Made by a program: the position numbers and the translations under genes
The notes under the pieces: generated by a model
Told to the model about the DNA's origin: nothing
Database searches by the model: none
What the model saw: only the letters and a program-made list of their open reading frames with translations
Part shown: in pieces, positions 9,051-35,006 of the stretch
Position numbering within the stretch: position 1 is the first letter of the stretch
Layout: each line of letters starts with the position of its first letter
Origin: Nitrospirales bacterium
GTDB taxonomy: Bacteria; Nitrospirota; Nitrospiria; Nitrospirales; UBA8639
Assembly (NCBI GenBank): GCA_029261355.1
Contig: JAJDBM010000071.1
Span: 1 to 64,000, forward strand
DNA length: 64,000 bases
Direction: 5' to 3'

Positions 9051-9715
9051 GGTTAATTCAGGCCCATGGGGGAAGTGGAGTTAAAGTTGTTGAAAATTTC
9101 ATACCATCACTCCATACGTTCTTCAGAACAGACACTCATTATTAGGAAGATTCATAAAGGGCGGAAAATTACTCATCCGGAAACAGTTCAATAAGGGGGT
9201 AGGTTCCAGCGGAGAGGAAGCGGATTAATTCTAAAATTCTTTGAATATGAACAATCGTCTCTTGAGTAAAACTGCTGCACCTCTTTTGTCTGCCCCTGTT
9301 GTTTTTCAAGTTTGCCTTAATGGCAAGTCACTCGCCATCTGGTTGCAACAGTCATTTCTACTTACTTCAGCTTCAGGCTGGCTTCGTCGAATTTGTTAAG
9401 AATGACCACAGTAGACATCTGCTTCAAATCAAATTGTTCCAGAAACACATCCAGTCCGATAAGCAAGAAGGCTGATTGCCGAATTGTTCACATTTTGCAG
9501 TATCGATCGAAAAATCTCATAGAGTGAGATTGCAACATAAGATGAGAGGAAAAGTACATTCAATAGGTTCTTTGGGAGTGGTTGTTTTATGTAGATGAAC
9601 AGACAATATACCCCAACGAATGGCTTTCAAATTCTTTCTCTTGTTGCGGCTTAAGACCTTCTCCTTTTCTTCCGAATTAATCATCACACGTTATTAATCC
9701 AGGTATTTTCGCAAG
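9051..9715. other. Intergenic region between divergent ZIP and MerC units
   Basis: I see no gene on either strand in these 665 bases. A short dyad TGAAAATTTCA lies about 40 bases upstream of the ZIP start and could be part of a Fur/Zur operator. The remainder shows no clear RNA gene or repeat. Confidence 0.45.
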
Positions 9716-9859: not shown

Positions 9860-9873
9860 GAACCAGAGGCGAG

Positions 9874-13694: not shown

Positions 13695-13742
13695 ATACTT
13701 CCCCTGGTTCGTAGGAATACCTTGCTTCAGCCAATTGAACAA

Positions 13743-14247: not shown

Positions 14248-14272
14248 CATCCGATCAATAAGCGTGTCCCCT

Positions 14273-14303: not shown

Positions 14304-14331
14304 TTCCTCGTATTCAATCAATCTTTGCTAA

Positions 14332-16126: not shown

Positions 16127-16159
16127 CTTGGCGATGAGAATAAAGTTGAGGATCGTCTC

Positions 16160-18822: not shown

Positions 18823-19444
18823 CACGATACCTCCTTGTTATTTATAAGAGAACAGAGTGAATATTTTTCCCTCAGCGTAGGGTCACTACCGCTTCAACAT
18901 TGTTCAATAGTGTGTAAATATGAGTGTCGCCAGAACGAAGGAAAGGAGGTTGCAATTCCTAAAATCTTCGCCCTGGGACTCCCATTGGGTAAGGGTGAGA
19001 CTTACCCGGATGATCAAGCAACTAGCAATCGATTCGGAACAGGAAGAAACAATTGGCGGTAACTTAACCTATGACACAAAAACGGCAACGAGAGTTTCAT
19101 GAATGGTATCTTTGTTCTCCTGAGAGACCTGAATGTAACCACGAAACAGCTTTTTCTACTTTTTCCTCTTGTCTGAAATCAGGGACTTAGGAATATGTGA
19201 TCGACAAGCGCTATCTCTGTCTGTATTCGAGGCACGATGAGCGAGAGTAACGATCTTTCAATATTTCGTAATGAGATTTTCACGACTGGTTGTCCTGATA
19301 GGATCAGGGTGCAAATCAATGTGTGAAAGGACGGGTGCTAAAGGACTTGAGGGTGTGACATGAATGATGGGGAGATGTGGCTATGGTAGTGAATAGAAAC
19401 GCTTAGTCAACTGAGTGCGAGCTGCCAGGCGTATTTGGGAAATC
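18823..19444. other. Intergenic region upstream of the PEP-CTERM gene
   Basis: No gene is apparent. A 7-bp hairpin (GGGTAAG, seven-base loop, CTTACCC) lies at 18987-19007. One good LytTR-type half-site (ACCATTCAT on the minus strand, 19107-19099) has a poor partner 21 bases away (GCCGTTTTT, 19086-19078), in the same orientation as the pilus sites. I rate that pair as weak. Confidence 0.4.
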
Positions 19445-20173
19445 TTATTTTATTTTCTTAGTTAGGGGTATGGCTAACAACCCTTTTATCCGAGCAAGCG
19501 GAACATTCCATCCTGGTCGTAGCTCCGCAGCTTCCTGATAAAGACCACGCGCATGCTTTTCCTGGCCTCTTCGTTCTTCAAAGAGTCCTAAGTGATAGGC
19601 GATTCGCCAGCGTGGCGCCCCTAAGTTCTCAGCTATCTTCAATTGTGTCTCTGCTCCATCTAGGTCACCTGACAGGAACATAGCCGCGGCGTAGGCCTCA
19701 CGGAGTGGTGCATGATCGGGTGATAGTTCGAGGTGTTGTTTCAGAAACGTAAGCGCGAAGGGTACATTGCCCTCTTCGAGCGCAATCCTCGCTCGCAGAG
19801 CCGCAGCCTCTGGGTGGACATTCACGAGTTCAAAAATCGTATTGAGTCGTTGCAGGGCTTTAACTCGTTCGCCTCTTTCATGGGACAAAACGGCTGAGGT
19901 CATTAACGAAGGGTTATGATTCGAACAGACGAAAGCAATCCGTTCAATTTCATCCTGCAAGACCTGACACGAATTCTGTCCTTCTGCATTCAGACTACAA
20001 CCACCTGGTGCAGAACGAGCCTCAACCAACAACTCCCAGGCTTCTGCCAACTGTAAATCAGGTACAGTGCACGCCGTTTCGTATAGTTGTCGATCATAAG
20101 GAGATGTTGCGCATGCTGAGCACAACAGGATGCTCAAAAATAATCCATAAACCAAACGAATCCTCACAGTCAT
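19445..20173 (-). CDS. TPR lipoprotein at the end of the Tad locus (TadD-like)
   Basis: 242 residues with lipobox LLCSAC near residue 21, so an outer-membrane lipoprotein is likely. TPR-like helical pairs fill about residues 90-235 (ALQRLNTIFELVNVHPEAAA, NVPFALTFLKQHLELSPDHA and ARGLYQEAAELRPGW). In Tad systems TadD is a TPR lipoprotein that helps the secretin mature or localise. The gene is the last of the Tad unit, 26 bases after tadC, which fits that role. Three extra Cys in the N-terminal half are unusual. Confidence 0.8.
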   Translation of the reverse strand: MTVRIRLVYGLFLSILLCSACATSPYDRQLYETACTVPDLQLAEAWELLVEARSAPGGCSLNAEGQNSCQVLQDEIERIAFVCSNHNPSLMTSAVLSHERGERVKALQRLNTIFELVNVHPEAAALRARIALEEGNVPFALTFLKQHLELSPDHAPLREAYAAAMFLSGDLDGAETQLKIAENLGAPRWRIAYHLGLFEERRGQEKHARGLYQEAAELRPGWNVPLARIKGLLAIPLTKKIK

Positions 20174-20199
20174 TCCTTTCTTAATATATCCTCAGCATC

Positions 20200-21171
20200 T
20201 TACCGCAAACCTCCGGTAATGCCACCCACGAGGGTTACCAGTTGATACAATGACGGTCCGAGGGTCGATAGAAAAATTCCCGGGAGAAAGCAAAGAATCA
20301 GCGGGAACACCATTTTGACGGGTAGGGCATGGGCAAGCATTAACGCGTGCTCACGACGTCGATTGCGAAGATCATCGGCCTGACGTCGTAGTGTGGCCGC
20401 CACACTCGATCCAATTTGTTCACTCTGAATCAATGCCGACATTAAAAAAGTAACAGATGTCACTTCAAGCCTAGAGGCAAGGCGTCGAAATGCTTGCAAT
20501 CGGGAAAGTCCTAATTGCAACTCACGATGGTAGGTCTGAAATTCTTGCGTCAACGGGCGGGAGCGGTTGTAGGCACCTAAGATCTGATCCAGAGCGGCAT
20601 CGAAGCTGAGTCCCCCCTCCGTCAAGGTTGCCAGGAGTTCCAAGAGAAGAGGAAGGTCCTGGTCAACCTTTTCCACGCGCTGACGACGGGCCGCACGAAC
20701 GATCATCCACGGAAGAGTGGCCAGCAAAGAGAGGCAGATCCAGGGACCGGCATATGCAACGGCTGTAAAGGCCTCTCCTATTCCACCTGGTATGTTTTGC
20801 AAAGGGACGACCATCATGTCGACTATTCTGAACTTATCAATCATGTATGCGCTTCCGATTCCTAGAGCTAATGCCCCGATGGTACAGGTCACAAACAGTG
20901 TTGGCGCTGATCGTCCGCGAAACCCCGAGAGAAACAACCACCGGCGTAGCCAGGACTCCGATCGGCTCCGTCCAATCTCTAACACAGAAGCGTCTGATCG
21001 TAAGTGTTCTCGTACTCGTTCTGCACTGCGATGTCGGATGAGCCAGGAGAGAAAGAAGAATGAAAGGACAAACACTCCAATCAAGAGGCCAATCCAATGC
21101 GTCGACCACAAGGCAATCAGTATTGCTACGACGAGGACTAACCCACTTTTCCAGAAACGGTCCATATTCAT
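20200..21171 (-). CDS. tadC: Tad pilus inner-membrane platform protein TadC
   Basis: About 323 residues with the GspF/TadC architecture. Two N-terminal membrane helices lead to a cytoplasmic helical domain (LPLLLELLATLTEGGLSFDA and VTFLMSALIQSEQIGSSVAA) and a C-terminal helix pair (MVFPLILCFLPGIFLSTLGP). TadB and TadC form the inner-membrane platform on which Flp pilin is assembled. The frame opens at TTG 21180, overlapping the tadB stop; ATG 21171 is chosen here. Order and overlap with tadB show one operon. Confidence 0.9.
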   Translation of the reverse strand: MNMDRFWKSGLVLVVAILIALWSTHWIGLLIGVFVLSFFFLSWLIRHRSAERVREHLRSDASVLEIGRSRSESWLRRWLFLSGFRGRSAPTLFVTCTIGALALGIGSAYMIDKFRIVDMMVVPLQNIPGGIGEAFTAVAYAGPWICLSLLATLPWMIVRAARRQRVEKVDQDLPLLLELLATLTEGGLSFDAALDQILGAYNRSRPLTQEFQTYHRELQLGLSRLQAFRRLASRLEVTSVTFLMSALIQSEQIGSSVAATLRRQADDLRNRRREHALMLAHALPVKMVFPLILCFLPGIFLSTLGPSLYQLVTLVGGITGGLR

Positions 21172-21176
21172 GTGTG

Positions 21177-22040
21177 TCAAAATTTGACTTGGCTCATGCG
21201 ATTAATCCAGAGAATGCCGATTGCTTGTAATGCAATCGCTGCTCCTGCCAATGTCGTCCCAAACTCACTAGCAAAAAAACTTTCGATCGGATGTGGATTG
21301 GCTCTCCACAGAATAATGGCCAACACATAAGAAATGGCCAGCACCCCGATGACCGAGACTTTGGCTTCCACACTTTGTGTCTGAACGCGTCGAGACAACT
21401 CGATTCGATCGCGAATGGTCCGGCCCACCCCTGCGAGCGTTGGGGCCAGACTCCCTCCTGTCCACCATTGTGCTGACAGCGTCAGTGAGAAGAGATGAAA
21501 CGTTTCCAACGGCACCAGTTCACCCAGCTCGCGCACGGCTGAGGCAGGGTTTTCTCCCAACCTGATCTTTCTAACCAATCCGCCCAGGTATCGCCGGAGT
21601 GGCTGTTTGGATTCCTTCCGCGCCGTATCCAATGCTTTCGAAAGGGACAAGCCTGCATGTAAAGCGCCAACCATCAGGTCAATGGCTTCTGCCAACTGTA
21701 TTTCAATCCGTCTGAGTCGTTTTTCGGCGACGATGGCTTCCAAGAGATACCCCAATATTCCAACCATCAAGCCCGAGCCGGCGACAAAGGGGAGGGCCAG
21801 TCCGAGTCCATACCACAGGCCCCCTCCTGTTAACGCACCCAGCGCTGCAGGAACGAGGCGATATCGGGGGGGATAGGTTCGACCTTTCAATTTATCCGGA
21901 CTTGAACGATCCTGGGTAGACTCATCCTGCATGACTCGGGCATGAGCGGCCGATCGAAGAGCCAAACGCCTCGACCACCACAGAACCAAAACCACACACG
22001 CAATGCCTATCCCGAGAATGAAGACTCCTCGAATATCCAT
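21177..22040 (-). CDS. tadB: Tad pilus inner-membrane platform protein TadB
   Basis: About 287 residues. Membrane helices lie near residues 5-20, 65-110 and 230-285. The T2SSF-type domain is marked by EAIDLMVGALHAGLSLSKAL and a Gly/Ala-rich C-terminus. ATG at 22040, with AGAGGACG eight bases upstream, is preferred to a longer frame reaching 22136 inside tadA. The start lies within a few bases of the tadA stop at 22042, so the genes are coupled. Its role is platform assembly together with TadC. Confidence 0.9.
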   Translation of the reverse strand: MDIRGVFILGIGIACVVLVLWWSRRLALRSAAHARVMQDESTQDRSSPDKLKGRTYPPRYRLVPAALGALTGGGLWYGLGLALPFVAGSGLMVGILGYLLEAIVAEKRLRRIEIQLAEAIDLMVGALHAGLSLSKALDTARKESKQPLRRYLGGLVRKIRLGENPASAVRELGELVPLETFHLFSLTLSAQWWTGGSLAPTLAGVGRTIRDRIELSRRVQTQSVEAKVSVIGVLAISYVLAIILWRANPHPIESFFASEFGTTLAGAAIALQAIGILWINRMSQVKF

Positions 22041-22041
22041 G

Positions 22042-23481
22042 TCACGTCCTCTGGTCGGTGAAGAGTGACAACGGAACTTCAAGATTCTGCTGCCGCAAAT
22101 CTTCGACCACCCGGGGAACAATGCCGGTTGAAACAAACTCGCCGAGTATCCGTCGCTTTTGTACGCCTCGTCGTCGAAACTGAAAGATGTCTTGCAGCAG
22201 CGGCGTCGTGCCTTCCAATCCGGTTATTTCTGCTATCGACTCAATTCGACGAACACCGTCTTCATATCTACGAATCTGAATCAGTATATTGAGAGCCGAG
22301 ACCATTTGTTCGCGGATGGCACGCGACGGCAATTCAGTTCCGGCATAGAGCACCATCGTTTCCAGGCGGGATAAGGCGTCCCGAGGAGAGTTGGCATGGA
22401 TCGTACCCATGCTGCCCTCGTGACCGGTATTCATGGCTTGCAGCATATCTAAGGCTTCAGGCCCCCGAACCTCCCCGACAATGATCCGATCCGGACGCAT
22501 TCGTAATGAGTTTACGACTAATTCCCTCGCTGTGATCCGGCCTTTCCCCTCGATATTGGATTGACGGGTTTCCATACGGACGATGTGCTCCTGGTCCAAC
22601 TGTAATTCGGCCGTGTCTTCGATCGTGATAATTCGTTCGTGAAAGGGAATCGCCTCGGACAGTGCGCCCAACAATGTTGATTTTCCGGCTCCAGTCCCAC
22701 CTGAAATCAGCAGGTTTCGTTTGCCTTGAACGATCAGATCTAAAAAAGTCGCCATGTCCGGTGACAACATGCCCAGACCCAGCAGATCCTTTCGCCTGAG
22801 CCGGCGAACCCCAAACCGCCGAATAGAAATCGTCGGGCCATCAATCGTGGCCGGGGGTAAGGTGGCGTTGACCCGTGTGCCATCGGATAGTCTCAGATCC
22901 ACCATAGGCGAAGACGTATCAATGTGCCGTCCCATTTGAGCCGCGATTCGTTCTATCACGCGAATGACATGATCGTTATCCAGAAATTGTACGTCCGTTT
23001 TTTCTAAGCGCCCGAATCGCTCCACATAGACGGACTGGTGGCCATTGACGAGAATGTCCGAGACCGCGGGGTCGGCTAAGAGGGAGGCCAATGGTCCCAG
23101 CCCGATCGCCTCTTCGGTTAATTCTTGGGCCAGCCGGTTTCGTTCTGCTTGATTGAGGGGGATGTGTTCCGCTTCGAGAATTCTCGTCGTAAACTCTTGG
23201 ACGATGGCGGAAATATCGTCTTGATCACGTCCACCGGCCAACTGCTCACCGATTTCATTCAACAAACGTTCTTGAAGTGCATTCTTGATCGAGAGATAAT
23301 CCGTATGTTTGACTTTGACCAGGGGATCGTCCACGACGGCATCATCGGACACGACATTCAGCGCCGGACGTTTCAGCGTGGCCTTGAGTCGCGATGCTGT
23401 ATCCTGACTCAAGGACTTGCGAAAAGGAGCCCTGGCCTCAGGTTCAGAAGAAGTTATATTAAAAGCGTCAGGGTCTGTCAT
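22042..23481 (-). CDS. tadA: Tad pilus assembly ATPase TadA/CpaF
   Basis: 479 residues. A variable N-terminal region of about 150 residues precedes the secretion ATPase core. Walker A is [15 protein letters not shown], the Asp box and Walker B region is [19 protein letters not shown], and the His box is [15 protein letters not shown]. This CpaF/TadA type powers Flp pilus extension and, in Caulobacter, also retraction. It lies between cpaE/tadZ and tadB, the usual order. All key nucleotide-binding residues appear intact. Confidence 0.95.
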
Positions 23482-23515
23482 GGAAGAGCATTCGTGAAGA
23501 TGATGGATAACGCGT

Positions 23516-24718
23516 CTAGTTTGTCAATGGATCACGCTCCGCATTGCGGGCGACTGGGAGTAACTGCTCGATTTCGTACACCAACCCATGGGCACTTCGC
23601 CCGAACCCAAAATGGCGATTGGCATGAAGGATATACGGTTCGCCGAGGTTAGCAGCGGTCAATAATTTTTTTTGATACGGAAAGGCATGATCAAACTCCC
23701 GTACGAGTCGTTCCTCAATCTCCCCTTGTGTCAAATTAGCCACAAAGTCACGGTAATTCTGATTGAGCACCAGACGTTGACGTTCAAGTGGGCAACCAAG
23801 CCCTTCTAGAATGGGAAGTAGTTTGGCTGTGCCAATAACATTAGGGGCCGTTCCTTGCATGATGATATAGGTGAGCTTCGACAAATCCAGAACGGCCATC
23901 ACGACACTGTCCAACATCGGAAAGGTATCCACGACCACGTATTTAAATGTCCGGCGAGCCAGGTTTAACACACGATAGATGGCTTCGTCGTCAACCTCTG
24001 AGGCTTCTGCGGCGTTGTTGGGGGCGGCCAAGAGGGAGAGGCCACAGTCGTGCGTGACGGTTAATTCCCGAAGCAATGTTTCATCAAGACGGTCCTTTTC
24101 ACGGATCGCATCAACAATCGTGGTTTGAGGAGTGAGGTTTAACATCACAGCACACACCCCGAGTTGTAAGGACCCATCGACCAGTAGTACTTGGCCTGGA
24201 TGACGTGACGCCAAAAGACAGGCGATATTGGTGCTAATCGTCGACTTCCCTACTCCACCTTTGTTGCTGGTAAACGAGATAATGTGTCCGAGCGACGGGA
24301 GAGTGGCTTGATGTTTGCTATCCAGACAGAGTCGATCAAAGACTTGTCGCATCTCTGTGCTGGAGAGAGGATGTCGAAGGAAGTCCTGAACGTGTGAGCG
24401 GACTCCTTGAAGAAGAAACGCACTTTCGGATTGATCGGCTTCAAATTGATCGGGATGATACAAGCCTGCAATAGCGGTCTGTGGCAATACCTGTACGACA
24501 TTAGCTGTAAACTCACGCAGGTCGGCAAGATCCCCGTTGAGCTCAACAAAAATGACGTTAGGCCGACGATTCCTAGCTAACTCCTCGGCATGCCGAAAAC
24601 TTTGGGCATATACTGTCTGAAACCGATACTGACTCACACCTTGCAACGCGGATTCAAATTCCTGCTTGAGTTCCGGGCTTTTTCCGACTACGAGTATATG
24701 CAAGGCCGTTTCCATCAT
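23516..24718 (-). CDS. cpaE: Tad pilus localisation ATPase TadZ/CpaE
   Basis: 400 residues. The N-terminal 120 residues form an atypical receiver-like domain (ILVVGKSPELKQEFESALQG). A MinD/ParA-type ATPase follows with the deviant Walker A FTSNKGGVGKSTISTNIACL and LLVDGSLQLGVCAVML. TadZ/CpaE marks the cell site where the Tad machine assembles. It lies 12 bases downstream of the tadG-like gene and 34 upstream of tadA. The signature lysine at the start of the P-loop (KGGVGKS) is present. Confidence 0.92.
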   Translation of the reverse strand: MMETALHILVVGKSPELKQEFESALQGVSQYRFQTVYAQSFRHAEELARNRRPNVIFVELNGDLADLREFTANVVQVLPQTAIAGLYHPDQFEADQSESAFLLQGVRSHVQDFLRHPLSSTEMRQVFDRLCLDSKHQATLPSLGHIISFTSNKGGVGKSTISTNIACLLASRHPGQVLLVDGSLQLGVCAVMLNLTPQTTIVDAIREKDRLDETLLRELTVTHDCGLSLLAAPNNAAEASEVDDEAIYRVLNLARRTFKYVVVDTFPMLDSVVMAVLDLSKLTYIIMQGTAPNVIGTAKLLPILEGLGCPLERQRLVLNQNYRDFVANLTQGEIEERLVREFDHAFPYQKKLLTAANLGEPYILHANRHFGFGRSAHGLVYEIEQLLPVARNAERDPLTN

Positions 24719-24729
24719 CCGTGCTCCCT

Positions 24730-25962
24730 TTATCGCACTAATACCGGGGCCAACAGGGCTCCCTCATCCTGGAGGGCCCGATTCGCTTCGAACAGCGCGG
24801 TCATTTCTTCCGATTGAAGATCGACTGGAAACGTAGGCTGTATGGTACTCGTTGCGTTTTCTACGGCAACCTGGCTCGATCGTTTCATGATTTGCACTGA
24901 GCCAGGAGTCGTTCCGGTCATTTCGATTCTCGCAAAGCCCACAATGCGTTCCGTACCGAACACCTCCTGATACAAAGGCGTGTAGCCGTCAATCGCAACA
25001 GAGCCTGCTAGTGGAGGATTGACTTGTACTGGCTGGCCAATACTCAGGACTTGAGTCACAAATTGACCGACGACCGTCCCTCCAATCGTGATTGCTCCGG
25101 ATCCATCCACATTACCCGAGACTGGAATCTCCTCCGATAGTGCGTCTCTCCACGCCATGCGATCCAGCGCGAACGAGGTCACCCCAAGACGAGGTGGTTC
25201 GAGCAAGGGGTCCGGCAAGCCGACTCCACGAGCAGGTCGAGCATCAGCAATGGCCGTGGCCCTCACGGTTATTCCCGTGAGGCGTACTCCTGGTGGGTCC
25301 GATTGGGGTTGAATGAGTGACCCGAGACCAAACAGTAATGGCAAGGTTGGCCCAGCTGAACTGACACCGGGAATACGGTCCAGGCTTTCAGTGTCCTGGA
25401 ATGGTTCCGGTTTGACGGAACGTCGTAGTCGAACAAGAAATGCATTGGCTGTTGGGATGGTGCTCGCGTCTGCCGAAACAAAGTCTTTCCGAGTATAGTC
25501 TGAACATTCAATTCCTGGCTTCTCGTTCTGACACCCAGGGTCGGGGTTCCCATATGTGCCGCTCACTAAGTCTCCATGCCTGAGATTGTCTTCTTCATTC
25601 CATTGTAGAGTAGGCTTGTACACGGGGCTGACGGGTACGGAAAGAGTTTGCATTGCGTTCAGGTCAGTCTGCCCTCCAGTCAGCCTCACATCTGGCCCTG
25701 CACCAAACTGCAATACATCACTGGATACGTCGAAATCATCATCATATATCCAGGACGCCAGTTGGCTGACGGCGACTCGCCGATTCAGATCGCTCACAGC
25801 AGGATCTTCAGGCACGACGTCACGCAGCCGCACCCCTTCAAGCGCTCCAGCATCGACCACCGACTGCATTTGCACTCTGGTGAGGTTGATATATCCCCAA
25901 TCAATGACTAACGAGGCCATTCCCAAAATTCCCCATACTAATAAGACAAAAAGCATCCACAT
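24730..25962 (-). CDS. TadG-like pseudopilin-type protein with a von Willebrand-less C-terminal domain
   Basis: 410 residues. The N-terminal helix MLFVLLVWGILGMASLVIDW leads into YINLTRVQMQSVVDAGALEG, the hallmark of TadG/DUF2134-like Tad proteins. A long extracytoplasmic part with repeated Pro and Gly follows. No von Willebrand MIDAS motif (DxSxS) is seen, unlike full-length TadG. The usual N-terminal processing region is very short, and the start at ATG 25962 is set by an in-frame TAA only a dozen codons upstream. It is likely an envelope-spanning minor component of the pilus. Confidence 0.8.
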   Translation of the reverse strand: MWMLFVLLVWGILGMASLVIDWGYINLTRVQMQSVVDAGALEGVRLRDVVPEDPAVSDLNRRVAVSQLASWIYDDDFDVSSDVLQFGAGPDVRLTGGQTDLNAMQTLSVPVSPVYKPTLQWNEEDNLRHGDLVSGTYGNPDPGCQNEKPGIECSDYTRKDFVSADASTIPTANAFLVRLRRSVKPEPFQDTESLDRIPGVSSAGPTLPLLFGLGSLIQPQSDPPGVRLTGITVRATAIADARPARGVGLPDPLLEPPRLGVTSFALDRMAWRDALSEEIPVSGNVDGSGAITIGGTVVGQFVTQVLSIGQPVQVNPPLAGSVAIDGYTPLYQEVFGTERIVGFARIEMTGTTPGSVQIMKRSSQVAVENATSTIQPTFPVDLQSEEMTALFEANRALQDEGALLAPVLVR

Positions 25963-26154
25963 TACATAAGTGTGAGTCGGTGTATTGTTGTAGGTTTAAC
26001 CCGTTCTATAGCCGATTCAATTCACTTTTGTACGCTTGGAGCGTTGACACTGCGTAGAAAATCCATAAGGCTCAACCGGTACTTATTTGGGTTTGCTATA
26101 GTACATGACAGACTTGCGTCTACCGCACACGCTTCCTACCTTGACGAGAGTCGA

Positions 26155-27174
26155 TTATTGTGGTGCAACCGGCACCGCAATCAATTCTCGTTCACCCGAG
26201 CCGTTGACTGTCTCGACAAAAGTCAGTGATGGACTTTGACCATGTCGCTTCTTGGTTTCTGACTGTGCCTCCTGGCCCAAAGCCATGGAAGCCCCGAATG
26301 GGCTCCATGGTTGCGATTCAGGGGTTTGACTATCCGTTGGATCGTCCGGATGCCCTGAACGGGGAACCGTGGTGATTTGTGCTTTCAGCACCATGGCCTC
26401 AGTCAGGGAAGCCACCTCACCGGGATCGACCGCAATCACGATTTCCTGAACGGGTTTTTTCTTGACAACGAGTCCTTGGGTCAGGGTGTTCATCGAGAGA
26501 GGTATTTCTCGGGTCATGAGTGGCTGTACCAGCACACCATTTTGTACCAGCACGCGTACGGTCGCTTGTTTTTCCCAATTGGTCAAATCGGCTTGGAGAG
26601 CCAATTGCTGTCCATAGGCGCCGCCAACACTCAATGGGTTTTCAGATCCCTTCAAGTCGATAGGCAAGGTCGCCAGAAGATCGAACCGATCGCCAGGGTT
26701 CAGACCGTACAGCCCATTCACCTTTCCCGCGACCACTCGCACAGCTCGCTTGCCTGGAGGAATGCCGCCTACCAAGCCTGGACGTGACCCCTTAGGGAGA
26801 AAATCAGCATCGGTAAACACATACCCAAGTGCTTTGTCACGAGCCAGCACACGACCAAGAATATCTTTCAAGTCTGTTTTCATCGATGCCGTAACCTGTT
26901 CAGAGGGAAGCCACACGACAGCTATTTGGCCTCGTTGCACATTCCAGGCATGCTCACGAGTTAATTTCGTGTAGGCTGGGATGGCTTTTGCACTCATGGG
27001 GATAGCGATGAGTCCCTCGGTGGAAGGCGGACAATCAATGCCAACCCAGCAGGGCTCTATGATTCCAGAGGCCCATAGTCCACCAGCCAATACCATAACG
27101 ATTCCCAGGAAAACTAAGGGAGAGGAGGCCAGTCGAGACCAGGTCCAACGATGCCGATAGTTTCTCGATTTCAT
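26155..27174 (-). CDS. cpaB: Tad pilus assembly protein CpaB/RcpC
   Basis: 339 residues. One N-terminal membrane anchor (residues 18-35) is followed by an SAF-type domain at about 55-125 (IPMSAKAIPAYTKLTREHAW and GIPPGKRAVRVVAGKVNGL). The RcpC/CpaB region (LNPGDRFDLLATLPID) and a disordered C-terminus come next. CpaB-like proteins are periplasmic and help stabilise or gate the Tad secretin. Its start overlaps the tadE stop by four bases. Unusually, a 190-base gap separates it from the next gene. Confidence 0.88.
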   Translation of the reverse strand: MKSRNYRHRWTWSRLASSPLVFLGIVMVLAGGLWASGIIEPCWVGIDCPPSTEGLIAIPMSAKAIPAYTKLTREHAWNVQRGQIAVVWLPSEQVTASMKTDLKDILGRVLARDKALGYVFTDADFLPKGSRPGLVGGIPPGKRAVRVVAGKVNGLYGLNPGDRFDLLATLPIDLKGSENPLSVGGAYGQQLALQADLTNWEKQATVRVLVQNGVLVQPLMTREIPLSMNTLTQGLVVKKKPVQEIVIAVDPGEVASLTEAMVLKAQITTVPRSGHPDDPTDSQTPESQPWSPFGASMALGQEAQSETKKRHGQSPSLTFVETVNGSGERELIAVPVAPQ

Positions 27175-28097
27175 AACAAGACCTCTCGTCTGGAAATCGC
27201 TTGAGCGGAGAGCAATTTACGGTATGGTCTCAGAGTTTCTCCAGCAAACGCCAATTGCCCACCCAACCCAAACCGGCCACCGTAGGGACCCACAGTCGGT
27301 AACTCTCCGTCAGCGAAGGGCGAACCACTGATAGGATTGTTGGCTGAGTCATCCACGTTCGCATCGTCTGCTTGAATGCGATTGGCCAGGTTTGGCTCGA
27401 ACATTCCGCCTGGACCCTGCTGAAATCCGCTTAACGTCGCTGCCTGAAACGGGTAATTCAGACGGACAGCTACCAGTCCTCGTTGAGGGGGAGGGTTCAG
27501 GGGATCAGGGGCGACAAGGCTGAAAGAACCATTCGGAATTTCTTCAAGGACAGGCACCCATCGAATAGTTTCGACACCATCCGCGCCGCGCGATTCCACA
27601 CGAGGAATGCCTACACTCAAACCGCTCGGGGTTGTTGGGTCATTTAACAACGCTCCAGGGAATCGCAACAACCGGCGTGTGCTACCTTTGATTTCCACCT
27701 GTTCAAAGATCATCAGAGACCTTAACATTTTGTTCACCAAGGGCAATTGATCCAGGAATGATTGAAAGGCTAGGTCATCACTAAACGTGTCAAGATCGAT
27801 CACGAGCAAGGCCGAGTCAAAGACTTGGGCCTTGACCGCTGGATCATCGAGGGCATCATCAAAAGACATCGCAGCCGGGAGGGGGGTTAGCGATAATTCC
27901 CGGGCCGCCACCCTAGCAGCATCTTGTAGCACCTGGGCGGAAAAGATCATGCGTCCCATGTCAAGGACTAGAGCTATTAGCAGGTAGAACACCAGGGATA
28001 GCAGCGCGAACTCAATGAGGACTCCTCCACGCTGAGACCTAGGCCATATTTTTTGTATTCGTGCTGCCATCGCAAAGCACTTTGGAGGGTGTGTCAC
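27171..28097 (-). CDS. TadE-like minor pilin / pseudopilin
   Basis: 308 residues. The N-terminal TadE signature is RGGVLIEFALLSLVFYLLI, with the conserved Glu five residues after the first post-Gly residue, followed by DMGRMIFSAQVLQDAARVAA. The remainder is a long extracytoplasmic domain. TadE-like proteins need cleavage by the prepilin peptidase and help initiate pilus growth. GTG 28097 overlaps the cpaC stop (GTGA); ATG 28070 is the alternative. It is longer than ordinary TadE (about 150-200 residues), so the extra part may have its own role. Confidence 0.85.
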   Translation of the reverse strand: MTHPPKCFAMAARIQKIWPRSQRGGVLIEFALLSLVFYLLIALVLDMGRMIFSAQVLQDAARVAARELSLTPLPAAMSFDDALDDPAVKAQVFDSALLVIDLDTFSDDLAFQSFLDQLPLVNKMLRSLMIFEQVEIKGSTRRLLRFPGALLNDPTTPSGLSVGIPRVESRGADGVETIRWVPVLEEIPNGSFSLVAPDPLNPPPQRGLVAVRLNYPFQAATLSGFQQGPGGMFEPNLANRIQADDANVDDSANNPISGSPFADGELPTVGPYGGRFGLGGQLAFAGETLRPYRKLLSAQAISRREVLL

Positions 28098-30181
28098 AGA
28101 CGATCCTTTACATGATTGGACCCTTGGGTCATGTTCCAGTCGGGTTGATAGTCCAAAAGTTCAGGGAACGCCCAGAGCCCAATATCGGGATTCGCATCTC
28201 GCATGATGACGGGATTGATCATCACGACGAGGTCAAGTTCCTCGTCGTTTTGCGAAAATTGTCGAAACATCCATCCGAGGACGGGTATGTCCCGTATGCC
28301 CGGAACAAAGTCCTGTTGATCAGATTTATCACGGGATATAAGTCCTCCGATCAAAAGCGATTGTCCATCGCGTAATCGAGCGCTCGTCTGGAGTGAGCGA
28401 CTTTGAAAGGCTGTCGTGGATTGATTCGTTCCGCTGGCGGATTCAATGGCTGCCGTCAATTGCAGGTCGGGTGTGACGACTCTGGGAATGACATCGATGG
28501 TTAACTCTCCATTTTCACCGACGAGCGGACGAACGCGGAGGGACACTCCAAATTCACGAAACTCCACCGTCTGAAAGACTCCTGCGACAACGGGGGCAGA
28601 CTGGTTTCCGACAAACGGTGAAAACACTTGTGAGATCGGTACTTCTCCGCCGACCAAAAACGCCGCCGTTTCTCCTGACAATACCGTCAGAGACGGTGAT
28701 GATAGACTGCGAGCCAGGTCGAGACTTTCCAGAAACGTGAACGCAGATTCCAGGATGAACTCACCGCTTTGAATAAAGGTCTCGGCAGCAAATGTGCCAC
28801 TCAAGAATCCTAACACTTGCTGGACTCCAGAGCTGGACGCTGGCTCCAACAGTTCACTTGCCCCTCCCTGTATTGAGCTGTTCCCGAAATTCGTGAAGGC
28901 TCCCGCGAAATCAGAGCTATAGGCCCGCAATTTTGTCCGGTTGACTTCATACAACTTGATGTTGACCCGAATTTGAGGCAGTTCTTTTACGTGAACGAAC
29001 GACACAATACGTCCGTTAGCCGCCTCGACCGCCTTGGCTCTTGCAAAGTTCGACCGTATATTATTCTTGATGCGGTTTTGATTGCTACTACCGCCTAATG
29101 CTCGACTACCTCCCCCTCCGCCCAAATTTGCTTGGACTCCTTGAGAGTTAGATCGCCGGGCTAAGGCTCCCGCTTCATCGCCAATCACGCGGATATTCTT
29201 TTGCGTGGCTCCCTTGCCGGTCAACATCCGGGAAGTGATCTCCAGAACACGCAACAGTGCGACTTGGTTTTTCACGAATCCCTCCAAGACGAACACATCC
29301 TGTTGGTCGTTCTGCGCTGTCCCTCGCATCACTCTTCGAACGGTGACCTCTTTCCCGCCAATATTGTCGATCGCATCCTGCATGCGTGCTTCAATGGTGG
29401 GAGGTAAGGTCTGTAAGCGAATCAAGTTGATAATAGTGCCTCTCGATGGCACCTCTTCGGTTAACCGGATAGGATCAGAAGACTTTACTGATGAGCCCAC
29501 TCCCTGGCCTGGATTGCCTGGCGTCGTGGTTTGCGTTGAGCCCTGGGAAGACTCTTCAGGACGAGATGAAGATGATGTATTCTGAGAACTCCTGACCAAT
29601 GGGCCGGTACCAGACCTTCGCGCTCCCCCTCTTGCTTGTACATATTTTTGTGCGATTCCTTCGGCCGCCTGAGAATAGGAGATATCGGGCACATTGCCCG
29701 TCAGAATGAGCGCATCACGATCCGGCGCGCTCCTGACATTGATACTTGGATGGACCGTATGAAGGGCAGCATGGAGTACTGAGAGGTCCCGTTGTACATT
29801 GCAACGGTACACACGAATTTTGCCATTTTGCAGCCAGACAATGATGGTGGTCCGCCCGGGGCGTTGACCAAGGACTAGCAGTTCTTGGTTATTGATCAGT
29901 TGGGCTGTCGCGATGGAGGCATCTCCCACCGCAATGCGTTGAACTGGGTGTTTGATGAGGATTCGACGATGTTGCGAAACGAGTACCCGCAAGGAGATAG
30001 GTTCCGGTTGACGGTGGGTGGCCACTGATTGATGAGAACGACCTTTCGTCGGGGAAACCTGCGCACTCACAGGTGTAGCAAGCAGAAACGCAATAACGTT
30101 GACGATCAGGCATAGGCAGAGACCATTAAAATACCCAAGTCTATTGTTGAGAAACTTTTTAGATTTTGGGAAAACAAACAT
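28094..30181 (-). CDS. cpaC: Tad secretin CpaC/RcpA
   Basis: 695 residues with a signal peptide (cleavage near residue 40, after VSA). The T2SS/T3SS pilus N-domain lies at about 60-165 (AVGDASIATAQLINNQELLVL). A Ser/Thr/Gln-rich linker follows at about 180-235, then a second N-domain, a Gly/Asn-rich stretch near 350-380, and the secretin core from about 470 to 680 ending in LLIGGLISRDKSDQQDFVPG. It forms the outer-membrane channel for the Flp pilus. The 150-residue insertion between the N-domains is larger than usual. A direct-repeat pair, a Fur-like dyad and a 16-bp palindrome lie upstream. Confidence 0.93.
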   Translation of the reverse strand: MFVFPKSKKFLNNRLGYFNGLCLCLIVNVIAFLLATPVSAQVSPTKGRSHQSVATHRQPEPISLRVLVSQHRRILIKHPVQRIAVGDASIATAQLINNQELLVLGQRPGRTTIIVWLQNGKIRVYRCNVQRDLSVLHAALHTVHPSINVRSAPDRDALILTGNVPDISYSQAAEGIAQKYVQARGGARRSGTGPLVRSSQNTSSSSRPEESSQGSTQTTTPGNPGQGVGSSVKSSDPIRLTEEVPSRGTIINLIRLQTLPPTIEARMQDAIDNIGGKEVTVRRVMRGTAQNDQQDVFVLEGFVKNQVALLRVLEITSRMLTGKGATQKNIRVIGDEAGALARRSNSQGVQANLGGGGGSRALGGSSNQNRIKNNIRSNFARAKAVEAANGRIVSFVHVKELPQIRVNIKLYEVNRTKLRAYSSDFAGAFTNFGNSSIQGGASELLEPASSSGVQQVLGFLSGTFAAETFIQSGEFILESAFTFLESLDLARSLSSPSLTVLSGETAAFLVGGEVPISQVFSPFVGNQSAPVVAGVFQTVEFREFGVSLRVRPLVGENGELTIDVIPRVVTPDLQLTAAIESASGTNQSTTAFQSRSLQTSARLRDGQSLLIGGLISRDKSDQQDFVPGIRDIPVLGWMFRQFSQNDEELDLVVMINPVIMRDANPDIGLWAFPELLDYQPDWNMTQGSNHVKDRL

Positions 30182-30357: not shown

Positions 30358-30387
30358 ATGAATGGTCTTTTTCATGAAGTGAATGGT
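30358..30387 (-). promoter_or_regulatory. LytTR-type direct-repeat pair A upstream of cpaC
   Basis: On the minus strand ACCATTCAC (30387-30379) and ACCATTCAT (30366-30358) start 21 bases apart, two helical turns. They lie 177 bases before the cpaC start and just beyond the terminator of the first pilin gene. Confidence 0.7.
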
Positions 30388-30393
30388 CTAATG

Positions 30394-30433
30394 AAAAAGC
30401 CTCCCCAGCCGAGTCAGGCCGGAAAGGCTTTTT
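30394..30433 (-). terminator. Terminator after pilin gene 1
   Basis: AAAAAGCCT ... AGGCTTTTT encloses a GC-rich inner stem with CCGGCC and GGCTGG arms. On the minus strand the hairpin is followed by TTTTT. It lies about 30 bases after the stop codon and separates abundant pilin mRNA from cpaC. Confidence 0.85.
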
Positions 30434-30462
30434 ATCCTCCGCATGCAACAACCCCTGGAAGC

Positions 30463-30825
30463 TTAAGGTGCTGCCGGGGCGTCCTCCACGGCTTCAACCA
30501 CCAATTGAGCAATACCATCATTGGTCCCGAGATTATTTCCCAACCGTGCGGTATCGGCGTTATTCACAATGGTGCCAATATCCAAGGCAATGGCATTGTT
30601 CCCGGGTCCCTGATTAGGAGCAGTTTCTATAAGCTGTCCTGCGACAATCGGACCATTGTCATCAGCATGCGCTCCCGGCATCACCGCGGCCATGGCCGCC
30701 ATCATATCCGAGGTTTTGTGGCCAAATACCGCCACGGCGGCCGCTCCGATTAAGGCAATGCCCGCGACGAGAAGACTATATTCTACTAGCGCCGCCCCTG
30801 CTTGACTCCGTAACCGTTTAAACAT
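30463..30825 (-). CDS. flp: Flp-type major pilin, copy 1
   Basis: 120 residues. A short basic leader (MFKRLRSQAG) ends at the prepilin cleavage Gly, followed by AALVEYSLLVAGIALIGAAA with the conserved Glu and Tyr of Flp pilins. A second hydrophobic part and an acidic, Asn-rich C-terminal domain of about 70 residues follow. Most Flp pilins are 50-75 residues, so this one is long. AAAGGGGG precedes ATG. It is nearly identical to copy 2 at 31339, differing at a handful of residues (VAGQLIETAP against VSGKIIETAP, and the last Ala/Thr). Confidence 0.93.
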   Translation of the reverse strand: MFKRLRSQAGAALVEYSLLVAGIALIGAAAVAVFGHKTSDMMAAMAAVMPGAHADDNGPIVAGQLIETAPNQGPGNNAIALDIGTIVNNADTARLGNNLGTNDGIAQLVVEAVEDAPAAP

Positions 30826-30980
30826 GAAAACCCCCTTTGAAAATGTTAAGCACCTGAGGCCCCTGAGTGGAAAAAAGAGAACGTCTCTCTAGTGAATGTT
30901 CGGACACTCGCCTGAGGTTGGTTATCCTGTAGATGATCAATTTTTTAAAGCATAGGGACTATATTTCCTATTCTTTTCCT

Positions 30981-31010
30981 ACGAGCGGTCGAAAAATTTC
31001 CATGAATTGT
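30981..31010 (-). promoter_or_regulatory. LytTR-type direct-repeat pair C upstream of pilin gene 1
   Basis: On the minus strand ACAATTCAT (31010-31002) and ACCGCTCGT (30989-30981) start 21 bases apart, 156 bases before the pilin start. The second half is degenerate at two positions. Confidence 0.5.
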
Positions 31011-31232
31011 TTATGGTCACCAACAACCAACATGAATGAGGGACGAGAGGAGACAGCCAGGTAGCAAAAGGGGAAAACCAATAAGCTAGAATTTGAAAAT
31101 ACTAGAAAAATTCAAGGAGTGATTGATTCTGGCTGGCATAATATACCTGTAGGTCAACGACGTAACGGGATCTGATCCTCCAAACACAGGACCTTGGGTT
31201 CCATGACCTTGATCTGTCCGCCTGAAATTCCA

Positions 31233-31262
31233 GTGAACGGTCTTTCTCATGATATGAATGGT
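31233..31262 (-). promoter_or_regulatory. LytTR-type direct-repeat pair B
   Basis: On the minus strand ACCATTCAT (31262-31254) and ACCGTTCAC (31241-31233) start 21 bases apart. The pair lies seven bases beyond the copy-2 terminator and about 410 bases before pilin gene 1. It corresponds in position to pair A after copy 1, so it was duplicated with the pilin unit. Confidence 0.65.
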
Positions 31263-31268
31263 CAAAGA

Positions 31269-31308
31269 AAAGAGCCTCCCCGGTCAAGTCTGGCCGGGAA
31301 GGCTCTTT
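31269..31308 (-). terminator. Terminator after pilin gene 2
   Basis: AAAGAGCC ... GGCTCTTT encloses an inner stem CCCGG/CCGGG. On the minus strand it reads out into a T-containing tract. It is homologous to the terminator after copy 1, but base changes in one arm are matched in the other, so pairing is kept. Confidence 0.85.
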
Positions 31309-31338
31309 ATCCTCGTGTATGCACCAATCCTTGGGAAC

Positions 31339-31701
31339 TTAAGGTGTTGCTGGGGCATCCTCCACGGCTTCAACCACCAATTGAGCAATACCATCATTGG
31401 TCCCGAGATTATTTCCCAACCGTGCGGTATCGGCGTTATTCACAATGGTCCCAATATCCAAGGCAATGGCATTGTTCCCGGGTCCCTGATTAGGAGCAGT
31501 TTCAATGATCTTTCCGCTGACAATCGGACCATTGTCATCAGCATGCGCTCCCGGCATCACCGCGGCCATGGCCGCCATCATATCCGAGGTTTTGTGCCCA
31601 AATACCGCCACGGCGGCCGCTCCAATTAAGGCAATGCCTGCGACGAGAAGGCTGTACTCCACTAACGCCGCTCCTGCTTGACTTCGTAACCGTTTAAACA
31701 T
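31339..31701 (-). CDS. flp: Flp-type major pilin, copy 2
   Basis: 120 residues, same length and layout as copy 1: leader MFKRLRSQAG, then AALVEYSLL with Glu and Tyr at the expected places, and an acidic Asn-rich tail. ATG at 31701 is set by comparison with copy 1 and by AAAGGAGGG upstream; an open frame extends to 31845 but is not coding. Its own promoter region carries pair D. The two copies may be expressed differently, since their upstream sequences diverge beyond about 120 bases. Confidence 0.93.
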   Translation of the reverse strand: MFKRLRSQAGAALVEYSLLVAGIALIGAAAVAVFGHKTSDMMAAMAAVMPGAHADDNGPIVSGKIIETAPNQGPGNNAIALDIGTIVNNADTARLGNNLGTNDGIAQLVVEAVEDAPATP

Positions 31702-32002
31702 AAGAACCCTCCTTTGAGAATGTTGAGCACCTGAGACCCCTGACAGGGTAAAAGAGAGGATCTCTCTTTTGAATGTCCGGACACTCGACTCAGATATAAT
31801 TTCCGGAGATAATTTAAGAATAGAAGAAGGCAGACGACCATTCACCTGTTCCGTCCACAGCTTTTATAAAGTGAAAGACGATTCATTCCCTACATTTTTT
31901 CAATGAACAGTAGAAATTATAGGTTGAATGGATAATTTGTAGGGGATAAACCGCTGAGCAGGAATGTGTAGGGGAACAATGGGGAAGAATAGACTGTATG
32001 CT
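31702..32002. other. Promoter region of pilin gene 2
   Basis: No gene is seen. It contains direct-repeat pair D and runs up to the end of the response-regulator gene. Confidence 0.5.
31903..31932 (-). promoter_or_regulatory. LytTR-type direct-repeat pair D upstream of pilin gene 2
   Basis: On the minus strand TCCATTCAA (31932-31924) and ACTGTTCAT (31911-31903) start 21 bases apart, about 200 bases before the pilin start. Confidence 0.6.
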
Positions 32003-32782
32003 TTAAAGCTTCAGGACATGATGTCGAAGGAATCGCGATTGGGTGCGACTGGCACGAAATTGCTGTGTGTTCGTCAGGGTGACGAGATACGATCCGCCCG
32101 GCATGTTGGTCATACGACTGATCGTATCCACATTGACGATTGTTCCCCTCCCCAAGCGGACAAACCGACGAGGATCGAGTTTGGCCTCTAAAGCCTTTAG
32201 TCTATGGCTGATCGTAAAACGTTCCTTTTTCAACGTCGTAATATACATCAACTCACCGTCTGAGACGAAAGAAGCAATTTGATTCACAGATAAGAAAATA
32301 ATGTCGTCCTTTTTTTTGATTGGTAGACGCTCGAGAAAGTTCTGTTGCAGGCAGGTCTCCTCCGGTTGAATTCCCAATTGAGCCTCAAGCTCTCCAGCAA
32401 CGACATCCTCCTGCTCCAGACGTTCTTGAGCTCGCTTAATCGTCTTTCGCAGTCGCGTTCGGTCTACCGGTTTCAATAAATAATCGATTGCCTCAATATC
32501 GAAAGCTTGAATAGCATATTGATCATGGGCTGTGACAAATGCAATTAAGGGGATGTGCCCTTTCTTGAGAGCTTGAACGATGGAGAAACCGTCCAGTCCA
32601 GGCATTTGTAAATCTAGCAGGGCTAGATCTGGTCGTTCGCGTTGAATTAGGTCGACCGCTTCTTCTCCATTTTCCGCCTCTCCTACGACGTCCACATCCG
32701 CTAAGGTTTTTAAGGTATTCGTCAAAAATGATCGGGCTGGTCGTTCATCATCAGCTACAATAACTCGAAGTTTACTGTTCAT
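32003..32782 (-). CDS. LytTR-family response regulator
   Basis: 259 residues. The receiver domain spans about 1-120, with acidic pair DDE at the start, phosphoacceptor Asp in LLDLQMPG, Thr in FVTAHD and Lys in LLKPVD. A helical linker leads to a LytTR DNA-binding domain at about 160-255 (FLSVNQIASFVSDGELMYI and DPRRFVRLGRGTIVNVD). LytTR domains bind pairs of 9-bp direct repeats about two turns apart, which is exactly the pattern found nearby. Its start overlaps the sensor gene stop by four bases. It is the obvious regulator of the adjacent pilin and tad genes. Confidence 0.93.
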   Translation of the reverse strand: MNSKLRVIVADDERPARSFLTNTLKTLADVDVVGEAENGEEAVDLIQRERPDLALLDLQMPGLDGFSIVQALKKGHIPLIAFVTAHDQYAIQAFDIEAIDYLLKPVDRTRLRKTIKRAQERLEQEDVVAGELEAQLGIQPEETCLQQNFLERLPIKKKDDIIFLSVNQIASFVSDGELMYITTLKKERFTISHRLKALEAKLDPRRFVRLGRGTIVNVDTISRMTNMPGGSYLVTLTNTQQFRASRTQSRFLRHHVLKL

Positions 32783-34896
32783 TTCTTTACATCCTGACTT
32801 GAAGGGATAGATATGGGTGACTCACTGGTAAAACGCTCAAGCTCCGAAATCGGAATTTGGATATAAACAGTAGTCCCATTCTCTATCGTTCGATGCATCT
32901 GCATCATGGCATCTTCTCCATAATGCAGATAAAGCCGCTTTCGTATGTTGGATAACCCGATGCCGCTCCCCCATGCCGCCGTCTCTTGATTTGAGCCTAG
33001 ACCAGTATCGTGAACGGTCAAGGATAAATGGTTGGTAGTGGGTTCCCCATTCCCGTTACTAGATTTCTGTGTTTGTATTCCGGCGACCAATTTGATGACT
33101 CCTCCTTTTGATGATTCTTGAATGCCGTGCTTAACAGCATTTTCGACCAACGGTTGTAGGAGTAAGGCAGGGACTAAATACCCTCTTAGCTCCGACGGGA
33201 CGTCGATGTGATAGACCAATCGTTGTTCAAACCGGGCCTGTTCGATCATCAAATAGGACTGCACCAGGTCTACCTCTTGGCCCAGCGTGGAAAATTCTCC
33301 TTCTAGGCGTTTTAATACCGCTCTCAACAATTCTGTCAACCTCATAAGTGTATCCAGTGCCTTCGCCGGTGTTGCCTGAATCAGGTATCCAATCGTGGTC
33401 AACGCATTGAATAAAAAATGAGGATTGAGTTGTGTCCGAAGGGCTCGAAGTTCAGCCTCTACCGTTAATTTTTTCATTTCCTGTTCCCGAATCGTGATAA
33501 CGCATCGCTCGTGAGCTGAACGCACAGCATCAATTCGTCGAGCGGCAAGATGTGCCACGGCCTCTAGCAGCATGATGTCGTCTGAGAGCAGTCGTCTTCC
33601 GTGGAGCAAACCTTGAATGATCATCGTATATTGTGGAGTCTCTGCGGTCAGAATGCTGACTACGCATTTTGAGTCAATTGGCTGAATTATTGCCGTTGCC
33701 AGTTCTTTGGTGCGTGCGGAAGGTCTCTTCGAAGGATCTGTCCTTCTTATATGAGCAAGCGCATCGTGTAGCCATGACGACTCTTTCTGTTCTTGTCCAC
33801 TTTCTGACTCTGGGTGCCGCTCTTGGGGGATTTCTCTCCAGCTTATGCGTGTTGCCAGAAGCGCAGATTGGAGAAGGGATGTTGTTGTAGTGAGAATAGC
33901 CTCGGGCTCTTCTTGATCATTGATCGAAGCAGCCAGAGCCTGTCTTAGCTTTTCGTAATCTGGACGTCGCAGTACCACCACGTCTACCAACCAGATTGCA
34001 CTCCGTCGTAGATAGGGATAGATCAAGGCAGTGGCGATCCAAAGAGCGAGAAATATCGTGAGCTGAGAAACCTGTGCCATGTCATCGCTCGGTTCTGGCT
34101 TCATCGTGGGTATCCCCACAGTAAGCAACACTCCTCCAATGAACAAGGCGAGTAGTAAAAATGACAAGGCACGTTTGAGGAAGAGATCCCCGAGTGCAAA
34201 ACGGTAATCCTGGTAGAGAATAGTGAGGGCTAAGAGGAGATTGGCATGATGTCCAATCAATTCCATTCCCCATGAATATTCCCCTGTCTGATGTTGACTG
34301 AACGGCAAAGCCGCGATAGCTATTCCAGCCAGCACGACGATTCGTCCCATCCGATCCCATCCCTTTGTCCAGATCCGAACCGCGAGAAGGCCGCCTAGGA
34401 GAATGAGGAATCCTCCAACCATCATTTGAAGTACGGACCCATCATTGTCGGTCGCTTGCGCAAACAAGATTCCCTTCACATGCCATACACTTGCCCATCC
34501 ACTTAAGAGAAACCCTGCACTTGTGATGGCTCGACGAGTCCAACTTGGTAGCTCCATGGCATGGGCATCTACCATGGCTAGAATGACGACGGCCGGTAAA
34601 AACCCTAAAGCAGTCAACGCTATGATGTTCAGCCATGGCAAGGGATCTGTGAGATGTAATTGCGGTAACACAAAAGCTAAGAGGCCTCCTACATTCCATA
34701 CCAGTCCAAGGGTTCCAGTCCATAATGAGAGCCACTTTGGTGAAGACTTTGAGAGATTGCTCTCAGTCCCTCGGTTCGGATCCTGCATGGACTGAAAGAT
34801 TAAACCCAAGAGCATGGTATACAGGATAATCCCGCTCACATACCCGCTGAGATGTGCAATGAAGACGGTCGAAATTTCTGGCAGATTAGTCATCAA
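32779..34896 (-). CDS. LytS-type membrane sensor histidine kinase
   Basis: 705 residues. About eight membrane helices fill roughly residues 8-300, followed by a GAF-like segment at about 320-460. The His_kinase domain has LNPHFLFNALTTIGYLIQ (phosphoacceptor His next to Pro), then LLLQPLVENAVKHGI (N box) and SGIGLSNIRKRL (G box). The layout matches LytS/YehU-type kinases that pair with LytTR regulators. The signal sensed by the membrane part is unknown. A repeat pair 81 bases upstream suggests autoregulation. Confidence 0.92.
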   Translation of the reverse strand: MMTNLPEISTVFIAHLSGYVSGIILYTMLLGLIFQSMQDPNRGTESNLSKSSPKWLSLWTGTLGLVWNVGGLLAFVLPQLHLTDPLPWLNIIALTALGFLPAVVILAMVDAHAMELPSWTRRAITSAGFLLSGWASVWHVKGILFAQATDNDGSVLQMMVGGFLILLGGLLAVRIWTKGWDRMGRIVVLAGIAIAALPFSQHQTGEYSWGMELIGHHANLLLALTILYQDYRFALGDLFLKRALSFLLLALFIGGVLLTVGIPTMKPEPSDDMAQVSQLTIFLALWIATALIYPYLRRSAIWLVDVVVLRRPDYEKLRQALAASINDQEEPEAILTTTTSLLQSALLATRISWREIPQERHPESESGQEQKESSWLHDALAHIRRTDPSKRPSARTKELATAIIQPIDSKCVVSILTAETPQYTMIIQGLLHGRRLLSDDIMLLEAVAHLAARRIDAVRSAHERCVITIREQEMKKLTVEAELRALRTQLNPHFLFNALTTIGYLIQATPAKALDTLMRLTELLRAVLKRLEGEFSTLGQEVDLVQSYLMIEQARFEQRLVYHIDVPSELRGYLVPALLLQPLVENAVKHGIQESSKGGVIKLVAGIQTQKSSNGNGEPTTNHLSLTVHDTGLGSNQETAAWGSGIGLSNIRKRLYLHYGEDAMMQMHRTIENGTTVYIQIPISELERFTSESPISIPSSQDVKK

Positions 34897-34976
34897 GTCG
34901 TACCATTAAGGTAGGTTCACTCTGCGAACCAGAACAAACCTTACCCTCAACTAGAATATTCCACGAAACTATCCTC

Positions 34977-35006
34977 ATGAACGGTCATTTTCGGTAGGCA
35001 AACTGT
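34977..35006 (-). promoter_or_regulatory. LytTR-type direct-repeat pair E upstream of the sensor kinase
   Basis: On the minus strand ACAGTTTGC (35006-34998) and ACCGTTCAT (34985-34977) start 21 bases apart. Both are embedded in a larger AAAATGAC repeat. The second matches the published LytTR consensus [TA][AC][CA]GTTN[AG][TG] at all nine positions. It lies 81 bases before the kinase start. Confidence 0.75.

Follow-up and report, generated by a model that had tools for sequence, protein, structure and literature searches.

The lytSR-Tad locus and its direct repeats

The analysed stretch of DNA (64 kb, hereafter the window) is part of a 4.63-Mb Nitrospirota genome (G000), and the elements studied were pairs of 9-bp direct repeats lying among the genes of a LytTR two-component system and a Tad pilus. 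On the minus strand, the gene order was lytS, lytR, pilin 2, pilin 1, cpaC, the remaining Tad operon and a PEP-CTERM gene. The lytS-like sensor kinase (32779..34896, minus strand) showed 7-8 transmembrane-like segments by hydropathy, a His_kinase domain (PF06580, 2e-22) and HATPase_c. Its middle part was probably GAF-like, no Pfam match was found beyond His_kinase and HATPase_c, so that the 5TM-5TMR_LYT sensor domain (PF07694) was not assigned, and its AlphaFold2 model was poor (pLDDT 60.8, pTM 0.37). The gene overlapped lytR (32003..32782, minus strand), which thus had a PF06580-type partner kinase and encoded a response regulator with a receiver (7-116, PF00072, 3e-25) and a LytTR DNA-binding domain (160-254, PF04397, 3e-15), both above the Pfam cut-off. 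A genome-wide LytTR search produced LytR as its one match, so the sequence-only reading was right to place a LytTR regulator among the repeats, and this was the sole LytTR protein of the genome. Among NCBIfam models, BtsR (NF008677) came closest to LytR with 160 bits, under the cut-off of 246, and LytR was not classed as a BtsR equivalog.

Pilin 2 (31339..31701, minus strand, 120 amino acids) was Flp-like by a GAALVEYSLL motif seen by eye and pilin 1 (30463..30825, minus strand) was 97% identical to it; neither had a Pfam or NCBIfam match, that of the Flp_Fap family included. The secretin gene cpaC (28094..30181, minus strand) had hits with PF00263 (3e-35) and PF13629 (8e-16). The rest of the Tad operon (19445..28097, minus strand) comprised genes for TadE (27171-28097), a CpaB-like protein (26155-27174), TadG (24730-25962), CpaE/TadZ (23516-24718), CpaF (22042-23481), TadB (21177-22136), TadC (20200-21180) and a TPR protein (19445-20173), all on the same strand. 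Pfam matches were obtained for TadE, Tad and AAA_31 while the others were read from sequence. Overall, the secretin, TadE/G, TadZ/CpaE, CpaF, TadB/C and small pilin of a Tad/Flp locus were all present, some of them by sequence reading only. The orthologous order from cpaC to tadB was kept in the relative G012.

The five repeat pairs were re-read from the sequence at the positions first reported for them, all on the minus strand and with the 9-mers of each pair 21 bp apart from start to start (9+12+9 layout). They were located before lytS (34977-35006, ACAGTTTGC/ACCGTTCAT, the predicted autoregulatory site), before pilin 2 (31903-31932, TCCATTCAA/ACTGTTCAT), before pilin 1 (30981-31010, ACAATTCAT/ACCGCTCGT, a weak pair), right after the pilin 2 terminator and approximately 400 nt before pilin 1 (31233-31262, ACCATTCAT/ACCGTTCAC), and behind the pilin 1 terminator at a distance of 177 nt before cpaC (30358-30387, ACCATTCAC/ACCATTCAT). 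LytTR sites consist of two direct repeats of about 9 bp with a spacer of 10-13 bp, which is the form found here, with spacers of 11 bp in some pairs. The consensus ACCRTTCAY was fitted in both halves by the pairs at 31233 and 30358 alone, whereas the other three pairs carried 3 mismatches each.

The perfect two-block pattern was found twice in the window and in none of 100 shuffles, and no other pair with fewer than 2 mismatches was found in the genome. Both perfect pairs sit in the alignable 3' flanks of the tandem pilin duplication and were therefore counted as one origin, and the use of the five pairs as five independent pieces of evidence was rejected for the same reason. The duplication probably brought the 31233-31262 pair with it, as a second copy of the site next to cpaC. 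Genome-wide, 79 pairs with up to 3 mismatches were present, so the three weaker pairs mean nothing singly and need other support; a consensus scan allowing 3 mismatches was likewise too weak to serve as sole proof. The intergenic DNA surrounding the genes (1,705 nt) held 5 pairs with at most 3 mismatches at spacing 21, each of them on the coding strand, compared to at most one pair per strand at the other spacings from 9 to 60.

Spacing, conservation and promoter position

A half-site matrix trained only on nine lytS promoters of genus g4, and hence out-of-sample for the window, placed 8 pairs at or above 14 bits at spacing 21, compared to a mean of 0.86 (maximum 4) for the 50 alternative spacings. 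It recovered four of the five pairs (35006, 31932, 31262 and 30387, 16-21 bits) while the pair at 30981 did not reach 14 bits, and further pairs were added at 6995-7024, 9595-9624 and 19078-19107. In seven intergenic regions, three of which were chosen because they held matches, spacing 21 ranked first in six and second in one among 51 spacings on the coding strand, and the opposite strand showed no such ranking. When more loci were included, pairs scoring 11 bits or higher numbered 35 at spacing 21 and 3-19 at the others. A second model (R1) was built from 20 sites, including most of those it finds. All seven of its matches with E<1 in the window's genome fell within 28 kb of the window's contig, and the pair at 30981 scored 12.8 bits (E 0.88). 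R1 ranked these sites top in LytTR-bearing genomes, and 16 relatives without LytTR gave nothing better than E 0.028. A covariance model from the g4 sites was dropped, as their conserved spacer would have biased it.

Orthologous lytSR loci were sampled from the genomes of 13 relatives and two named contigs. The pair before lytS was present in all 14 orthologous loci having that region, with LytS identity down to 44-46%, at spacing 21 in 13 loci and 20 in L143. The typical form in genus g4 was ACCGTTTAT-N12-CCCGTTCAT, and the lytS promoter was the only convincing site in the g4 genomes. Pairs in pilin-type promoters were found in G012, G023 (two) and the L003 contig, as well as in G003 (a same-genus relative with a regulator 81% identical to the window LytR) and G016, where no pilin followed. 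The equivalents of the pilin 2 pair had a spacing of 21 bp in L141 and L152 and of 20 bp in L142, L143 and L003; the second pilin of L143 had 21 bp. G012 and G023, the two Tad-bearing loci with these genes assembled, retained the 21-bp pair on the cpaC side. The pairs were thus conserved before orthologous genes, as the sequence-only reading required of them, and its shuffled-sequence and other-spacing comparison also came out mostly in their favour. The lytS and pilin 2 pairs were rescued by this conservation despite 3 mismatches each. The placement of sites before both pilins stood for pilin 2; for pilin 1, however, the proximal pair (30981) was unsupported and is at most a candidate site, and the distal one (31233) is the probable copy.

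This type of pilin was present in 3 of 37 genomes, each time directly behind lytSR, and more distant Tad loci (TadE 42-46%) without this pilin were found in G002, G003 and G004. LytSR occurred without adjoining Tad genes in G003, L002, G016 and nine g4 genomes and is therefore not a dedicated Tad regulator; Tad thus looks like cargo that particular lineages carry behind an older LytTR system. No Tad genes were detected by tblastn at 1e-5 in the examined flanks, some of them short, of 76 LytTR loci of other phyla. In G003 (L141 7700-8000), lytR was still followed by the pilin-type promoter, but the Tad genes that would separate this promoter from the PEP-CTERM gene were missing. In all nine g4 loci (L144-L151 and L153), lytR was followed by the gene for a conserved protein of about 165 amino acids, whose N-terminus was signal-like and which matched no Pfam family. 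G016 additionally encoded another LytTR regulator (30% identity), paired with a kinase of its own (L155, G016:C51).

Promoters of lytS and of the pilin type had a -10-like hexamer (TATACT, TAAGAT, TATGAT or TATAAA) beginning 33-34 nt past the proximal 9-mer. The best -10 score at this distance averaged 4.7, compared to -3.15 on average (sd 1.8) for distances 5-74; the promoters include several related ones, and a less dependent subset showed the same result. In the window, TAAGGT (34943-34938, minus strand) lay 33 nt downstream of the lytS pair and TATAAA (31868-31863, minus strand) 34 nt downstream of the pilin 2 pair. This distance places the repeats upstream of the -35 region, a position from which LytTR proteins mostly activate transcription (PMC11347149).

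A leader element with partial conservation (TCTGAGGCGAGTGTCCGGACATTC...) was observed before the pilins (31695-31830 and 30820-30940, minus strand) and in L142 and L143, and recurred in decayed form before the TonB receptor gene (6770-6905, minus strand) and in the pilin-less L141 and L152. It had no Rfam match and is possibly an RNA element or a start-site region. In addition, a small hydrophobic ORF (MxxLLxxLLIFxxVKPAxA; 35161-35319, plus strand) was divergent from lytS and a similar one (about 9720-9860, plus strand) was divergent from zupT; they were also seen with L142 and L238. These ORFs suggest a shared or duplicated promoter region.

Further pairs before metal-related genes

The predicted sites were supported for lytS, pilin 2 and cpaC but were not limited to the Tad locus, since the three additional pairs of the window precede a TonB receptor gene, zupT and a PEP-CTERM gene. 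The pair at 6995-7024 (minus strand, TCCATTCAT/ACGGTTCAT) was followed by a -10-like TAAAAG at 33 nt and lay in a leader resembling that of pilin 2. The TonB-dependent receptor behind it (4266..6614, minus strand; PF00593 2e-30, PF07715 1e-19) may start near 6519 by comparison with G016, where an 81% identical receptor gene came immediately after lytR and a pair-bearing pilin-type promoter. This receptor was found in none of the 31 genomes besides those of the window and G016. Before the gene for a zupT-like ZIP metal transporter (8316..9050, minus strand; NCBIfam ZupT 2e-13, below cut-off), three 9-mers followed each other in 21-bp steps (9624, 9603 and 9582; 9574..9624, minus strand), the third being weak. 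The triple was kept before the orthologs in G003 (L238, on a contig other than that of lytSR) and, in degenerate form, in G029 (L239).

A tentative pair (19078..19107, minus strand, ACCATTCAT/GCCGTTTTT) preceded the gene for a PEP-CTERM protein of the all3515 family (17956..18825, minus strand; NF040463, 271 bits, cut-off 75), a family named Zur-repressed by NCBIfam. A pair had the same position before the G003 ortholog (L141 8513), and a similar one lay behind lytR in L002 (10928). Downstream of the 19107 pair, a conserved and apparently structured leader was observed (18930-19015, minus strand; GGGTAAG...CTTACCC...GGGAGTCCCAGGG) with counterparts in L141 of G003 (8605-8680) and L002 (11020-11090); Rfam gave no match to it, either at gathering score in the window or at E<1 in L141.

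Generally, window positions 2500-18800 held a metal-related cluster with genes for the TonB receptor, a MerC-like protein, a Fur family protein, the ZIP transporter, a CobW GTPase and the all3515 PEP-CTERM protein. A dihydroorotase-like amidohydrolase gene (16160-17491) sat among them, and the L002 site at 12969 before a dihydroorotase-like gene had no counterpart at the window ortholog. Finally, two neighbouring ORFs at 1453-2511 (minus strand) looked like fragments of a phage-type integrase.

Proposed regulation and alternative explanations

The reading of the repeats as LytTR sites is well supported by sequence comparison. We consider it likely that they are the binding sites of the single LytR, and that a BtsR/AlgR-like LytTR system activates itself, the Tad pilus and the nearby metal-related genes. 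Binding, phosphorylation, a signal and activation rather than repression are what we infer for this system. The membrane kinase LytS would phosphorylate LytR, which would bind the two 9-bp repeats on one DNA face, two turns apart and some 46-75 bp ahead of the predicted start of transcription, and recruit sigma-70 RNA polymerase. LytR would in this way activate its own lytSR operon and the operon behind lytR, which is the Tad pilus in the window and in G012/G023 and the TonB receptor in G016. Further sites may extend its activation to the secretin operon and zupT and, less certainly, to the PEP-CTERM gene.

Several points weigh against this interpretation. The matrix match at +9951 was equally good (20.1 bits) but falls inside coding sequence, and was set aside as probably due to chance. 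The R1 scans were partly circular, since most of the sites they returned had also served to train R1, and as proof they were replaced by the g4-only matrix. In each genome, scoring covered the top 150 first-look candidates, so that weak sites at a distance may have escaped. The spacing, reported as exactly 21 bp, was so in all five window pairs but was 20 in the pilin promoters of G012, G023A and L003. Finally, the cpaC and distal pilin 1 (31233) pairs had no -10-like hexamer at 33 nt.

Known LytTR systems share several of these features. BtsS/BtsR (YehU/YehT) of E. coli and other gamma-proteobacteria likewise combines a receiver-LytTR regulator with a His_kinase partner, and the BtsR site oligo used experimentally at yjiY, ACCGCTTAC-N12-ACCACTCAG (PMC4847170), has the 21-bp period and a half-site near-identical to those of the window (PMC4847170). 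In contrast, the window LytR scored under the BtsR cut-off, its sensor lacked a 5TMR-LYT match, and the BtsR target is a pyruvate transporter and not pili. AlgZ(FimS)/AlgR of Pseudomonas aeruginosa is a LytTR system which activates the pilus genes fimU-pilVWXY1Y2E via CCGTTCGTC-type sites (PMC4064291). However, those genes encode type IVa minor pilins rather than Tad components, and the sites are single boxes at various positions with no fixed 21-bp tandem pairs (PMC4064291). AgrA, ComE, VirR and YpdB also have pairs of repeats of about 9 bp with 10-13 bp spacing, usually upstream of -35 (PMC11347149, PMC4847170), but differ in repeat sequences and targets. Among 5.39 million openly available papers, a set with most subscription papers outside it, none was found to pair LytTR with a Tad pilus or Flp pili. 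Of the known Tad regulators, PprB of P. aeruginosa is not known to be a LytTR protein, and DVU2114 of Desulfovibrio vulgaris is sigma54-dependent. Both are two-component response regulators over tad/pilin genes (PMC3333781).

Primarily, the sites may form a metal- or envelope-stress regulon, with LytSR sensing such a cue and Tad as a late-added cargo, set behind its promoter in some lineages and absent in others. This is quite plausible, though we stop short of calling it probable. Sites precede zupT in the window, G003 and G029, the TonB receptor in the window and G016, and the all3515 PEP-CTERM gene; Fur-family, MerC-like and CobW genes lie nearby, and both LytSR in genomes lacking adjoining Tad genes and the L141 pilin-type promoter lacking a pilin fit it. 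However, the zinc link rests on gene names, the Fur-family protein may be other than Zur, the PEP-CTERM pair is weak and the g4 genomes offer the lytS promoter as their only convincing site.

The pairs at cpaC and the distal pilin 1 position bear on another explanation, which we regard as rather unlikely: LytR represses or acts otherwise there, the perfect pairs acting at a distance or being functionless relics of duplication. The missing -10-like hexamer and the position of both pairs behind pilin terminators in duplicated flanks would agree with it, and LytTR repressors such as CoxC exist (PMC11347149). An idle relic, however, would not be expected to be kept at 21 bp before cpaC in G012 and G023. 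Binding of the repeats by another regulator appears very improbable; a protein cannot be named from sequence alone, but the pair and its spacing match LytTR sites specifically, the one LytTR gene lies among the sites, and the relatives without LytTR show no comparable matches. Chance matches together with a copy from the pilin duplication, and no regulator at all, are hardly credible, since the 3-mismatch pairs with their 79 genome-wide counterparts and the common origin of the perfect ones stand against a lytS pair conserved in 14 loci and the out-of-sample spacing test.

For the LytR-activated circuit, a further step can be offered as a tentative suggestion. The lytS promoter and the promoter behind lytR could form a portable promoter module whose cargo (Tad pilus, TonB receptor or small ORF) is swapped between lineages, coupling metal acquisition to surface attachment in Nitrospirota.

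Overall, the analysis provides a testable regulatory map for a group without genetics, comprising the promoters of one two-component system with base-level sites and predicted starts. If true, a LytTR system would stand over a Tad pilus and link attachment to metal-uptake genes. The cargo present, absent or exchanged behind a conserved promoter would then give a view of how such a circuit is rewired.

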